NCBI GenBank assembly: GCA_046727435.1
Contig: JBKPCR010000056.1
Coordinates: forward strand, 1 to 11,419
Length of the DNA stretch: 11,419 bases
Direction: 5' to 3'
Source: CAVPRW01 sp046727435 [NCBI: bacterium]
GTDB taxonomy: Bacteria > Tectomicrobia > Entotheonellia > J063
Of this stretch, positions 2,496-9,286 are shown piece after piece (positions within the stretch are counted from its first letter, which is position 1; each line of letters starts with the position of its first letter). The notes under the pieces were generated by a model, which worked only from the letters and a program-made list of their open reading frames with translations, made no database searches and was not told the origin of the DNA. The position numbers were made by a program, and so were the translations under genes.

Positions 2496-4064
2496 GTGGG
2501 CGACTGCCGCTGTGGGATGCGCCATGACCCGAACCCACTACGGGAGAAGTCCCGCCAGACAGGCGGCACTCGCCGGCGCCCGTCCAAGGGGACCATCGTG
2601 GCCACCTATGATTACACCGACGAGCAGGGCACCGTACTCTCCCGCGCGGTGCGCTATCAGCCGAAAGGCTTCAGTCAGGAGCGGCCCGACGGCCACGGCG
2701 GCTGGATCCCAAATATGGACGGGGTGCGGCGCGTCCCGTACCGGTTGCCCGAGTTCCTCGCTGCCATCCAGGCCGGTCGGCGCATCGTCATCCCGGAAGG
2801 GGAGAAGGACGTCGGTCGGCTCATCGACCTCGGCCACGCCGCCACCTGTAACGCCATGGGGGCTGGGAAGTGGCCCGAGGACTTCGCCCGCTATTTCGAG
2901 GGCGCCACGTCGGTCGTGGTGCTCGCCGATCACGACCCCGATGGCGATCGGCATGCCACCCAGGTCTGCGCCAATCTGTGGTCCGTGGTGCCGAAGATCC
3001 AACGCCACGACTTTACCGATCTGCGCAAAGGCGGTGACGTCAGCAACTGGCTGGACGACGCCGGTCATACGCCCGAGGCGTTAGAGACCCTGCTGACCCA
3101 CGCCACCGTCGTGACCACGAAGCCGACCTCCTCGTCGACGACCGTGCCCCAGGGCCGGCCCGTCGTCGTCACCATGAGCGACGTCGATCGGGAGGCGATC
3201 GAGTGGCTGTGGTGGCCCTACATCGCTGTTGGCAAGCTGTGTATGCTCGATGGCGATCCCGGCATCGGGAAATCGCTCCTGATGACCCAGGTCGCCGCGA
3301 GTCTCAGTCAGGGCCAGCCGCTACCAGACCAGCAGGGCAAGCCCACGCTGGCCCCCGACAGTCCGCAGGAGACGCTCCTGCGGACCGCTGAAGACGGACT
3401 CGGGGACACCCTGAAGCCACGCCTCGAAGCCGCCGGGGCCGACTGTACCAAGATTCACGTGCTCACCGGCTGGCGGGGGTCGGAAGACCAGGACGAGATG
3501 TTTTATTTCACCTTGCAGCACCTCTGGGTGCTCGAGGATGCCCTGAAGCAGTATCAGCCCCGCCTCGTGGTGCTCGACCCGATCCAGGCCTACGTCGGCG
3601 ACATCGACATGCATCGGGCCAACGAGACGCGGCCGCTCCTCGCCGCCCTGGCACGGCTGGCGGAACAGTACCACTGCGCCATCGTCTGTATCCGGCACCC
3701 CAGCAAGCCCGGGCAAGCCCTCGGCAAGATGATCCATCGCGGTCTGGGGAGTATTGATTTCATCGGTGCCGCCCGCACCGGCCTCTATGTTGAGCAACAC
3801 CCCGTCGACGTGAACAAGGTGTTGCTGCTGCACATCAAAAGTAACATCGGCCCGAGGGGCCGGACGCAGGTCTATGCCAAGGCGAACGGGTTGTTCCAGT
3901 GGTGTGCGGCGTCGCGGCTCACCGTCGAGCTCCTGGAGGGCAGCGGTCGCGGCCCGGACCCACGCGTCTCGCTGGAGGTGTTCTGCTGGCTGGAAACGCA
4001 CATGACGCCAGGGGTGGCACGACCCGCCACAGCGACGAGCACGCCACAGGAAGCGCCACGATGA
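2496..4064 (+). CDS. TOPRIM primase / RepA-like AAA helicase fusion (522 aa)
   Basis: A plasmid or phage-type replication protein that should make primers and unwind DNA. The TOPRIM part (about residues 95-190) has the catalytic glutamates in PEGEKD (E101, E103) and the DxD motif in LADHDPDGD (D145, D147). The helicase part has Walker A GDPGIGKS (253-260), Walker B LVVLD (357-361) and RHPSK (400-404), typical of RepA/AAA_25 ATPases. The conserved VATYDYTDEQG that normally follows the zinc-binding N-terminus begins at residue 35, and no CHC2-type zinc finger precedes it, so the protein looks N-terminally truncated. The tail after GVARPATA also looks shorter than usual. GTG 2496 has no clear ribosome binding site; GTG 2598 has AGGGGA 5 nt upstream and is an alternative (488 aa). 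The stop overlaps the next ATG. Confidence 0.85.
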   Translation: MGDCRCGMRHDPNPLREKSRQTGGTRRRPSKGTIVATYDYTDEQGTVLSRAVRYQPKGFSQERPDGHGGWIPNMDGVRRVPYRLPEFLAAIQAGRRIVIPEGEKDVGRLIDLGHAATCNAMGAGKWPEDFARYFEGATSVVVLADHDPDGDRHATQVCANLWSVVPKIQRHDFTDLRKGGDVSNWLDDAGHTPEALETLLTHATVVTTKPTSSSTTVPQGRPVVVTMSDVDREAIEWLWWPYIAVGKLCMLDGDPGIGKSLLMTQVAASLSQGQPLPDQQGKPTLAPDSPQETLLRTAEDGLGDTLKPRLEAAGADCTKIHVLTGWRGSEDQDEMFYFTLQHLWVLEDALKQYQPRLVVLDPIQAYVGDIDMHRANETRPLLAALARLAEQYHCAIVCIRHPSKPGQALGKMIHRGLGSIDFIGAARTGLYVEQHPVDVNKVLLLHIKSNIGPRGRTQVYAKANGLFQWCAASRLTVELLEGSGRGPDPRVSLEVFCWLETHMTPGVARPATATSTPQEAPR

Positions 4065-4664: not shown

Positions 4665-4716
4665 ATGCGTGCAACATTGATTTAAAAAAACTTTCGGCAC
4701 AATAGTGGAGGCCGTC

Positions 4717-5460
4717 ATGCCAAATGCTATCTATCGGAACCGGATAATCAACAGCATTCAGTATGCGGTGAGCGAAGCCCGCAATGCTGCACTAGTGGGA
4801 CATCCCGGTCTCGTCGGTAAGATAAGGGAGCTTGCTGCCGAACAGATTCTGCGGCCGCTCCTCCCTGCTGCTTACGACATTGGCTCCGGCAAGATCACCG
4901 ATAGGAACGGCGCCCTTAGCGCCGAAGTTGATCTAGTTATCTATAATCGATCCCTGCTACCGGCATTGATGTACAGCACTCGAGACGGAATCTACCCCAT
5001 CGAGTCAACTTACTATGCGTTCGAGATCAAAAGCGAATGCAGTGCAGGCAACCTTCGCGACGCCATCGAGAAGTCGCGCCAGATCAATGGCCTCGAGTAT
5101 TCCCGAAAGGAGAGCTTCCCAGGGAACCTATCACCTGCTTTCATGATCTTTTTCGCCTTCGGCTCTGATTTATCCCCGGAGGGCAAGACTGAGTTGGATC
5201 GCTATGTAGAACTCGATTCTGCCTGGGAGAATGATCCGTTCATCAGAGTGATGTGTGTTGTGGGCCGAGGCTTTTGGTATTTCTCAGCTGAGAAACGTTG
5301 GCACTACCAGCCTGCCACCAGCACGTTCGACGAGATACTTGTTCTTCTGTCCCAGATGGTTGTTACCCTTGTGCGACACTCAAGCTTCAAGCGCGGCCCG
5401 GAACCACTCTTTGGGGACTATCTCCGGCCGCCCGACGAGGAGACCGAGGCGGCGAAGTAA
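4717..5460 (+). CDS. DUF6602-type protein with PD-(D/E)xK nuclease-like residues (247 aa)
   Basis: The order of motifs matches the DUF6602-type proteins I recall: a helical N-terminus, then LLPAAYDIGSGKITD (48-62), AEVDLVIYN (69-77), and YPIESTYYAFEIKSE (93-107). D72 with E103 and K105 form a D...ExK set like the active site of PD-(D/E)xK nucleases, so a metal-dependent DNA cleavage role is plausible but unproven. The start is ATG 4717 with GGAGG 5 nt before it. Base composition and codon use are clearly less GC-rich than in the preceding replication genes, which suggests separate acquisition. No methyltransferase or helicase partner sits next to it, so it is not an obvious restriction system. 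It could be a stand-alone defence or DNA-repair gene. Confidence 0.7.
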   Translation: MPNAIYRNRIINSIQYAVSEARNAALVGHPGLVGKIRELAAEQILRPLLPAAYDIGSGKITDRNGALSAEVDLVIYNRSLLPALMYSTRDGIYPIESTYYAFEIKSECSAGNLRDAIEKSRQINGLEYSRKESFPGNLSPAFMIFFAFGSDLSPEGKTELDRYVELDSAWENDPFIRVMCVVGRGFWYFSAEKRWHYQPATSTFDEILVLLSQMVVTLVRHSSFKRGPEPLFGDYLRPPDEETEAAK

Positions 5461-5689
5461 CAGAAGAAAAACGTCACCAAAAGCGTCAGGCAGGCAGGCT
5501 TGCTACGAAGTGAAATAGAATTGGTAATCCTCTTTCAGTTTTGCACACCACAGCCGTGTGCCGAAGCAGCACATGAGTTCCTCCGGCGCTTCTGGCACCC
5601 CAGAGATGAAGGGGATGATCGGAGAACGCTTTCATTCCTCAGATTTTAGCGCCCCATGATGCCTTAGTGCCCCGGGTGACACGCTTGTT

Positions 5690-5789
5690 GACACTGGTGG
5701 CGAATTGTCTACCACTGCTCGGAACCCATGATTTTATGCGGCTGACCTCGGTAGAAGAATGAGGGTTTTGTGAATTCGCCACCAGTGTC
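5690..5789. repeat. 100-bp nested inverted repeat, MITE-like or structured RNA
   Basis: GACACTGGTGGCGAATT (5690-5706) and 5773-5789 are perfect 17-bp inverse complements around a 66-nt interior. Just inside the left arm, TCTACC (5708-5713) is the reverse complement of GGTAGA at about 5750-5755, so the fold can continue inward with a bulge on the right side. A TTGACA overlaps the left arm (5688-5693), but there is no good -10 at 16-18 nt. No clear target duplication flanks the arms. It may be a miniature inverted-repeat element, the two ends of a lost insertion, a structured transcript, or a recombination site. Confidence 0.65.
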
Positions 5790-5813
5790 CATGTTGGGTT
5801 TGGGCCAACATGG
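5789..5813. repeat. 9-bp stem hairpin adjoining the long inverted repeat
   Basis: CCATGTTGG (5789-5797) and CCAACATGG (5805-5813) are perfect inverse complements with a 7-nt loop. It abuts the right arm of the 100-bp inverted repeat, sharing base 5789. No T-run follows, so it is not a plain terminator. Confidence 0.5.
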
Positions 5814-5922
5814 GGGACTTGCCGTGGGGGTGATCGGCGCTCTGATCAAGCGGCAACATCACCGCCTGATCATCTCCGCGCGCGTGGGATGGTGGGAGAT
5901 CGATGCCGTTCTGGAGCGCACC

Positions 5923-6177
5923 ATGACGCTGACGCGGACACAGTGGCGCACCTACACCGACTGGCCGAGCGTCTGCCGCCGCGCGGCCGGACGTCGGAAG
6001 TACAACGAGGAGCGTCAGCGATATGCTGGCGCGCGGGCTGATCTCGTCTGCAAATTGTTGCTGGAGTACGGCGTCGATTGCTGGGGCGTGTGTGCGCGAA
6101 TCGCCCGGGAGCTCTCGGTCTCACGGGCGACGGTCTGCCGGGACCGGCAGCGCCTCGTGCGGAGCCTGATGGGGTAA
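5923..6177 (+). CDS. Small helix-turn-helix DNA-binding protein (84 aa)
   Basis: ARIARELSVSRATVCRDRQRL near the C-terminus is a clear helix-turn-helix: helix 2, a turn at SVS, and a recognition helix with SRATVCRD. It is preceded by AGRRKYNEERQRYAGARADL, a basic helix I associate with a family of small HTH proteins from environmental high-GC bacteria. I chose ATG 5923 (GGAG 6 nt upstream) because this matches the compact form; the frame is open back to GTG 5770, but that extension would run through the inverted repeat. It is a likely transcriptional regulator of unknown target, possibly of its neighbours. Confidence 0.62.
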   Translation: MTLTRTQWRTYTDWPSVCRRAAGRRKYNEERQRYAGARADLVCKLLLEYGVDCWGVCARIARELSVSRATVCRDRQRLVRSLMG

Positions 6178-7546: not shown

Positions 7547-7648
7547 ATCCATCACCGTCCCCGACACCATGACGTCGACCCGTTTCCCGTTGGGCGGCGA
7601 CAGCGTCGCGGGGCTGGCGGAGACGGTAATCGCGGGCGGGATCGTATC
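7547..7648 (-). pseudogene. Remnant of an Ig-like/PKD-like C-terminal domain of the HAF-repeat protein
   Basis: Directly after the HAF gene stop, a different minus-strand frame reads DTIPPAITVSASPATL, then SPPNGKRVDVMVSGTV. The pattern TxPPxITVSASPATLxPPNGKxVxVTVSGT is, as I recall, a common C-terminal module of secreted proteins, including HAF-repeat ones, in these bacteria. Adding one base near 7648-7653 would fuse it to the HAF protein as ...FLATPE-x-VDTIPPAITV. After about 7547 the similarity stops, close to the 3' end of the convergent 6754 gene, so the rest of the domain has been lost. It is therefore a frameshifted and truncated tail rather than a gene. Confidence 0.7.
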
Positions 7649-8388
7649 TACCTCTCAGGTGTCGCCAGAAAGCCATGGAACCCATCTCTTGTGGGATCAA
7701 AGACCCATCCCACGAGCTGGCCCACCACATTGATCCCCTGGAGATAGGTGTTCGTGGCACCGGGAACGTCGATGGTCGTATATATGGCGCCGTCTTTGAG
7801 AAAACCATGGGGAAAGGGTGGGTCCTCCGTGTAATCATCGAACTGCCCCACAATCTGGCCCACCGCATTAATCCCATAGGCCCAGGTGTTCGTGGCGCCG
7901 GGAACAGCGATAGTGGTGAACGTGGCGCCGTCTGTCAGAAAGCCCTTGATGTGCCCCATGGCATCATCGAAGGCCCCCACGATCTGGCCCACCTTGTTGA
8001 TCCCATAGGCCTGGGTGGTCGGGGCACCGGGGACATCGATGGTCGTGAAGGTGGCGCCGGTTTTCAGAAACCCATGGTACTCCCCTGCAGCATCACGGAA
8101 TTGGCCCACGATCCGGCCCCCCGCGTTGATCCCGAAGGCCTGGGTGTCTGCAGCGTTGGGGACAGCGATGGTCGTGAACGTGACGCCGTCTGTTAAAAAT
8201 CCATCGGACCTTGTGACAGCATCGAACGTCCCCACGATCTGGCCTGCTGTATTGATCCCATAGGGAATGGTGCTTCTGGCGCCGGGGACATCGATCGTGG
8301 TGAAGGTATACGAGGCGTCTTGGGCCGAGACAAGGGTACTGAGCAGGACACACAGGGATAGCACAGCCGGCAGTAGCGAGCGGCGCAT
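7648..8388 (-). CDS. Secreted HAF-repeat protein (246 aa)
   Basis: The N-terminus MRRSLLPAVLSLCVLLSTLVSA is a standard signal peptide with likely cleavage after VSA (residue 22), so the product is exported. The mature part is five HAF-type repeats of about 40 residues, each with a TFTTIDVPGA-like strand, then YGIN..GQIVG and a (H)GFL segment; the last ends GFHGFLATPER. The role of these beta-propeller-like repeats is not known. I chose ATG 8388 (AGAGG 7 nt upstream) because the signal peptide starts there; upstream in-frame sequence is not coding-like. On the minus strand TATACT at 8475-8470 is a -10 candidate without a convincing -35. The C-terminal domain appears lost by a frameshift. Confidence 0.85.
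   Translation of the reverse strand: MRRSLLPAVLSLCVLLSTLVSAQDASYTFTTIDVPGARSTIPYGINTAGQIVGTFDAVTRSDGFLTDGVTFTTIAVPNAADTQAFGINAGGRIVGQFRDAAGEYHGFLKTGATFTTIDVPGAPTTQAYGINKVGQIVGAFDDAMGHIKGFLTDGATFTTIAVPGATNTWAYGINAVGQIVGQFDDYTEDPPFPHGFLKDGAIYTTIDVPGATNTYLQGINVVGQLVGWVFDPTRDGFHGFLATPER
7660..8330 (-). repeat. Five diverged tandem repeats (~120 bp each) encoding HAF motifs
   Basis: Motifs such as GGGGACATCGATGGTCGTGAA-like strings (plus-strand view), followed by conserved cattgatcccatagg-like segments, recur about every 115-130 bp across the coding region. They correspond to the five TFTTI..VPGA / YGIN..GQIVG protein repeats. The repeats are diverged, so they look old and under protein-level constraint. 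Confidence 0.7.
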
Positions 8389-8522
8389 GGGAGGACCTCT
8401 TTCTATTCGTAGGGGTCGGGTCAGTAGACACAGGAGACATGGGGTGAGGCTATCCGACTGGGCGGAGAAAGTATAGAAAAATCGATATTTATGGCGGGTA
8501 GAGGGGTCTTGGAGGCGCTGGT

Positions 8523-8789
8523 CTACTGAGATGCCGCGCACAGGACACGCAGTCCAGGCCCACCCCCGGGCGCCGCGGCGAAATGCCCCTCGACCCACGC
8601 CAGCACGTCGTCGATGACGGCCAGGTCGCGCCGCTCCCTGCCGGCGGTCATGAAATCGAGCTGGGCCGCTTGGGTCCCGCCACAGATGGCGGCATGGACG
8701 ATCACCTGCAACACCGCCTCCCGGTTGGCGCCGGGTGGCAGCTGCGCCACCACCTGCTGACGTAAGATCCGATACCGTGTCTCGGGCAT
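8523..8789 (-). CDS. Hypothetical protein (88 aa)
   Basis: ATG 8789 has GGAGG 8 nt upstream, which makes it better than the in-frame start at 8885. The product (MPETRYRILRQQVVAQLPPG onward) is an all-helical small soluble protein with a Gly/Ala-rich C-terminal end and one internal Cys (AAICGG). No motif allows a function. It lies 134 nt upstream of the HAF gene in the same direction and divergent to the excisionase-like gene, with which it shares a roughly 290-bp control region. A TATACT at 8881-8876 could be its -10. Confidence 0.5.
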   Translation of the reverse strand: MPETRYRILRQQVVAQLPPGANREAVLQVIVHAAICGGTQAAQLDFMTAGRERRDLAVIDDVLAWVEGHFAAAPGGGPGLRVLCAASQ

Positions 8790-9033: not shown

Positions 9034-9079
9034 CATCGACACGGCAGCAGACGTGAACCATCAGCAGAGGAGTTTCGCC

Positions 9080-9286
9080 ATGCCTACCTTACTGACCCTG
9101 CCCGAAGTCCAGGCGCACTTACGCGTCAGTCGTGCCACGGTGCGGCGCCTGATCATCCGCGGGCAGCTCCCGATCGTCAAGGTCGGGCGGCGCACCCTCG
9201 TCACCCGCCAGGCGTTGGACGCCTTTGTGCGGCACCAGCAGGTGCGGCGTGAACCCGACGCCCGCACGGAGGACGGCCATGCCTGA
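9080..9286 (+). CDS. Excisionase-like helix-turn-helix protein (68 aa)
   Basis: MPTLLTLPEVQAHLRVSRAT followed by VRRLIIRGQLPIVKVGRR and LVTRQALDAFV is the classic MerR/HTH_17 excisionase fold: a recognition helix (VSRATVRRLI), a wing with GQLPIVKVGRR, and a C-terminal helix ending at DAFV. Such proteins bend DNA and control direction of site-specific recombination, or act as regulators, in mobile elements. Start ATG 9080 has GAGGAG 7 nt upstream. It is the first gene of an overlapping cassette driven by the promoter at 9005-9033. No integrase is present in this window, so a regulator role is equally possible. Confidence 0.85.
   Translation: MPTLLTLPEVQAHLRVSRATVRRLIIRGQLPIVKVGRRTLVTRQALDAFVRHQQVRREPDARTEDGHA

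Follow-up and report, generated by a model that had tools for sequence, protein, structure and literature searches.

We conclude, with a probability of about 0.9, that positions 5690–5789 of the window (the whole 11,419-nt stretch of DNA analysed here) form a 100-bp MITE of a subgroup of the IS1182 family, a subgroup whose ends read GAYACTGGTGGCGAA or close to it. Judged from their sequence, the two arms of the palindrome are the ends of IS1182-family elements. At least two distant genomes each contain several elements of similar size with these ends, many of them lying between direct repeats of 6–8 bp. An earlier sequence-only reading had remarked that the arms look like transposon ends and had listed a MITE, a structured RNA and a recombination site as possibilities. 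The MITE is supported, given that the same ends are found on insertion sequences and that related copies have flanking direct repeats; the candidate RNA or recombination site is struck off the list. The cause of the palindrome can now be named: in kind it is a common sort of genomic parasite, not a novel RNA or recombination device.

The left terminal inverted repeat, GACACTGGTGGCGAATT (5690–5706, + strand), pairs at 17/17 positions with the right one, AATTCGCCACCAGTGTC (5773–5789, − strand), as the sequence-only reading had it. Between them lies a non-coding interior of 66 nt (5707–5772), so that the element, at 100 bp and with no transposase gene, is of MITE size (<500 bp). With up to three mismatches allowed, no further copy of the arm was found in the window (shuffle mean 0.01 matches). 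At the setting used, the window contained two perfect inverted repeats, the second being 1–17/1486–1502. The latter forms the 17-bp ends of an IS701-family element (1–1502), and the window starts exactly at the end of that element. It encodes a 400-aa transposase (NF033540, 396 bits; cut-off 150), and an imperfect 26-bp near-palindrome (81%, 1-nt gap) is present at 191–243 in its non-coding end.

The description of the surroundings as free of genes held for about 5461–5829, small overlapping frames excepted. The next likely gene after the element is an open frame that runs to 6177, with a possible GTG start at 5830, about 40 bp past the element’s end. This frame matched no protein family, and a search of the viral collection gave no confirmed relatives; its C-terminus, read by eye, looks HTH-like. 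Just upstream of the MITE, 4705–5460 encodes a DUF6602 protein that is possibly a nuclease, judging from its matches to a PADLOC CRISPR-associated PD-DExK nuclease model (1.6e-29) and to PADLOC NucC-like effector models (8.6e-17 and 2.4e-14). Positions 2496–4064 encode a protein of primase/helicase type, with an AAA_25 domain and kinship to the primase/helicases of phages; its distant relatives are on plasmids (75 records) and viral contigs (22 loci). Together with an excisionase-like HTH protein at 9053–9286, it suggests an integrated mobile element. A HAF-repeat protein (TIGR02913) is encoded on the − strand at 7648–8598.

Full-length insertion sequences with the same ends, which the sequence-only reading had proposed looking for, were found in two genomes, neither of them the window’s own. 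In Ktedonobacter sp. SOSP1-85, L057:1416–3174 is 1,759 bp long, is bounded by two arms and has a single open frame of 555 aa, whose product matched the IS1182 family model NF033551 at 321 bits (cut-off 270) and the Pfam domains DUF772 and DDE_Tnp_1_6. At its end, GTTACTGGTGGCGAAGT, 14/17 positions are those of the window arm, with differences at positions 2, 3 and 16, and its boundary direct repeat measures 6 bp, which becomes 8 bp when the end is moved inward by one base. Being full-length with an open transposase, it is unlike the gene-less window element. The second element, L125:836–2621 (genome G328), is 1,786 bp long, has the window’s 17 bp exactly in both ends, and is flanked by perfect 7-bp direct repeats, CGTTCCT. 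The likeness of the arms to transposon ends is thus an identity at 17/17 positions with both ends of this element, although its transposase is frameshifted and split over two overlapping frames, both of whose products are IS1182-like, and its subterminal DNA has no match to the window interior.

Remains of similar transposases were found beside such arms elsewhere. Among the seven genomes first searched, the L057 protein had matches in three and none in the other four, and it was complete and open in Ktedonobacter only. The Lamprocystis MAG (L095) and a Thiodictyon MAG (L096) each have one IS1182-like transposase piece directly inside an arm. The NF033551 scores of these fragments, 84 bits for L095, 106 for L096, and 140 and 190 for those of L125, are all below the cut-off of 270. 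In Ktedonobacter, a 53%-identical transposase piece (L098) lies inside a one-mismatch arm, and a 48%-identical transposase (L097) has no such ends. Transposase matches were present in 4 of 60 genomes from the Lamprocystis order (Lamprocystis, G316, G363 and G328); the G363 piece is short and weak and lies inside an arm, and the weak G316 match has no such end. A search for the IS1182 family in the phylum of Lamprocystis found 27 of 249 genomes over the cut-off. Because exact CTGGTGGCGAA was absent from all 30 best-match family loci that were fetched, we take this end to mark a subgroup of IS1182. Two of the 30 loci (L142 and L149) have one single CTGGTGGCGAA match each, with one mismatch and not as paired ends; many of the 30 show another paired repeat, and some have no readable paired end.

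Short elements with these ends were sought as well. A two-arm pattern, in which each arm was shortened to 11 bp and the gap was 55–85, was scanned over the genome contigs and gave 23 stretches, where arithmetic for an even base composition predicts about 0.5. Twenty of the 23 continue as, or near, GAYACTGGTGGCGAA at one or both ends; the other three (L010, L022 and L025) are probably coincidental and were left out, since their bases beyond CTGGTGGCGAA misfit. Ten of the 20 are in the Lamprocystis MAG and five in Ktedonobacter sp. SOSP1-85, with one each in Chromatiaceae, Thiodictyon and Thiotrichales MAGs and in two Ktedonobacterales-type MAGs. MITEs of the subgroup are found in at least the Chloroflexota and the Gammaproteobacteria. 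Counts of the 12-mer ACTGGTGGCGAA against its reversed pattern in seven genomes were 23/0, 54/1, 9/0, 2/0, 5/1, 0/0 and 9/2. Some single 12-mer matches fall within genes and are coincidences, as in G005. Multiple copies per genome were seen in the relatives from Ktedonobacter and Lamprocystis. Units of 88–99 bp with these ends recur in one and the same genome, nearly identical inside but flanked by different sequence, which shows that elements of this size do move.

The distribution of the elements is patchy. The exact two-arm pattern matched 1 of 301 Ktedonobacter-phylum genomes and 1 of 96 Lamprocystis-family genomes, both of them genomes from which such elements had already come. These sparse counts are lower bounds, since the strict pattern missed known elements: those of G005 (L026) and G006 (L006) were lost through gap length or one base, and in Lamprocystis the exact pattern gave 5 elements where the looser one had given 10 stretches. 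Two further arrangements were seen among the copies. At L062:295–574 on a Ktedonobacter contig, two MITEs about 100 bp apart lie inside a larger palindrome with 18-bp arms, which suggests repeated insertion into one repeat. Four Lamprocystis loci (L067, L068, L070 and L072) have a second class of MITE, about 230–250 bp long, whose ends are the same but whose interior differs.

Across the viral collection, no stretch had two-arm elements. The 17-mer alone matched three times there (L001, L002 and L003); we regard these as coding coincidences because the 17-mer falls in a DTGGE frame (DTGGEF in L002 and L003, DTGGEL in L001) with no second arm. Two viral matches to the GAY variant (L157 and L158) are both inside open frames. 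By DNA similarity, the element itself had two short, weak matches among plasmids. The wider region had weak matches to plasmids and phages, and no match covered the element among the 20 of 128 plasmid matches and 20 of 21 phage matches listed. The whole window had no near match among plasmids or phages.

Flanking duplications, a second feature that the sequence-only reading had proposed seeking, were examined with the ends set at G[A/T][C/T]ACTGG and a direct repeat defined as 6–8 bp with at most one mismatch. After removal of repeat copies with the same flanks, 40 rows remained, from which 19 elements with the motif at both ends were kept; with the two full insertion sequences they make 21. 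Direct repeats at the exact boundary were found in 13 of the 21 (10 perfect), as against 0–4 at twelve shifted boundaries. The composite L062:295–574, which spans two elements, was counted as a miss among the 21. The window element counts among the 13: CTTGTT (5684–5689) and CATGTT (5790–5795) agree at 5/6 positions and are a possible target-site duplication, imperfect and short, which 0.9% of random position pairs in the window would equal. Among the elements that have no direct repeat are three with perfect palindromic flanks directly at their ends (L012, 17 bp; L019, 17 bp; L026, 8 bp). For the window we propose that a DDE transposase of the IS1182 family, acting in trans, would have recognised both 17-bp ends and transferred the 100-bp element to its present site. 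Insertion would have duplicated about 6 bp of target, and one of the two copies would since have mutated.

Each of the other accounts of the palindrome has something in its favour. The window interior was compared by local alignment against shuffles with 17 other interiors and with five subterminal stretches of full or partial insertion sequences; none of the 22 comparisons gave a match (lowest p 0.055). An interior unlike all the copies compared makes a private origin possible, that is, an IS1182-type element that lost its interior in place and was never mobile as a 100-bp unit. The recurrence of 88–99-bp units within genomes tells against such a history, as does the lack of any match between the 66-nt interior and the subterminal sequences compared, which need not represent the window’s own parent insertion sequence; we hold a remnant formed in place to be quite improbable. 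A site-specific recombination site, whether attC-like or a resolution or attachment site, would suit the neighbouring genes, which resemble parts of an integrated mobile element (the primase/helicase and the excisionase-like HTH protein). However, in full-length elements flanked by direct repeats these arms enclose a gene for a DDE transposase, and the site is dispersed over unrelated contexts, so that this option of the sequence-only reading falls away with hardly any probability left to it.

The predicted fold is a point in favour of a structured regulatory RNA or an RNA-processing hairpin, with the adjoining hairpin included. When folded as RNA, as had been advised, 5680–5820 did better than 200/200 shuffles (z −4.3); 5690–5813 folded as DNA also did better than 200/200 (z −5.8). 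A transcript through the palindrome may fold, and the element ends close ahead of the possible GTG start. Nevertheless, we rejected an RNA role as the cause of the palindrome, because no Rfam family reached the gathering threshold for the element region, no promoter or terminator consensus was found in 5450–5950, and only the ends are conserved among unrelated copies. In an alignment of 11 elements, agreement in the interior was limited to sister copies. Neither a known RNA family nor a conserved interior was therefore found, and no comparable hairpin was seen by eye beside the other listed copies. An RNA of this kind is accordingly given next to no chance, and we keep to a MITE moved by an IS1182-family transposase.

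Two smaller features of the region can be placed in the same light. The abutting hairpin (5789–5813) is present in the predicted folds, with an 8-bp stem (5790–5797/5805–5812) and a 7-nt loop; the stem reaches the 9 bp first claimed for it only if C5789 and G5813 pair. It is separate from the MITE, beyond the element’s boundary and having the base C5789 alone in common with it, and is probably part of the target site or merely a neighbour of the insertion point. The inner 6-bp pair of the sequence-only reading is presumably TCTACC (5708–5713) with GGTAGA (5750–5755). It was given no weight: by arithmetic, a 66-nt stretch should contain about 0.3 pairs of this kind at random, and the pair is absent from both predicted folds.

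The flanks of the copies bear on how this subgroup chooses its targets. At 8 of 15 sites a flanking hairpin has the direct repeat as its loop (stem p<0.05), the 15 having been picked for having a direct repeat and coming from four genomes, with the Lamprocystis sites, and likewise the Ktedonobacter sites, not independent among themselves, and with two (L047 and L076) having an imperfect end. At the window site the direct repeat is not in a hairpin loop (p 0.63); its right copy, CATGTT, opens the first strand of the adjoining hairpin. A model that includes hairpin replacement, hairpin duplication or loop duplication is given in the available portion of PMC5678879. We tentatively suggest, at rather under even odds, that the GAYACTGGTGGCGAA-ended subgroup inserts into the loops of DNA hairpins and duplicates the loop, and that the palindrome-flanked copies arose by the same mechanism through its “hairpin replaced” branch. 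Insertion into the loop would correspond to the “loop duplicated” branch of the model figure in PMC5678879, one of three outcomes in the part of that paper available. The copies are natural insertions with which duplication of a hairpin loop and palindrome-flanked insertion can be compared within one transposon subgroup, and the set should be mildly interesting to specialists in the target choice of insertion sequences.

The end studied here is not described in the available parts of PMC4923244, PMC3852290, PMC5678879 and PMC3281130; on that footing its novelty is not claimed. The 12-mer ACTGGTGGCGAA also occurs in five papers, whose titles (mouse, rat, liver and bone-marrow studies) suggest primers. 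A close parallel in kind is in Methanosarcina acetivorans, where the accessible text of PMC3852290 reports MITEs of 160 bp (14 copies) and 169 bp (7 copies) with the IS1182-family partner ISMac2. Those MITEs are likewise short and non-autonomous with an IS1182-family partner; their arms are 25–26 bp, compared with 17 bp in the 100-bp window element, and the comparison is one of size, arm length and partner. IS1272 and TnSha1 have transposases of the same family and insert at hairpins or inverted repeats, according to the parts of PMC4923244 and PMC5678879 available. IS1272, an IS1182-family element, is described in the former as inserting into hairpins with partial deletion and no duplication. 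In the excerpts on IS1272 and TnSha1 there is no target duplication and the hairpin is lost, whereas here 13 of 21 elements have 6–8-bp direct repeats. Both MITEs of the IS1182 family and hairpin targeting are already published, and the window element is another instance.
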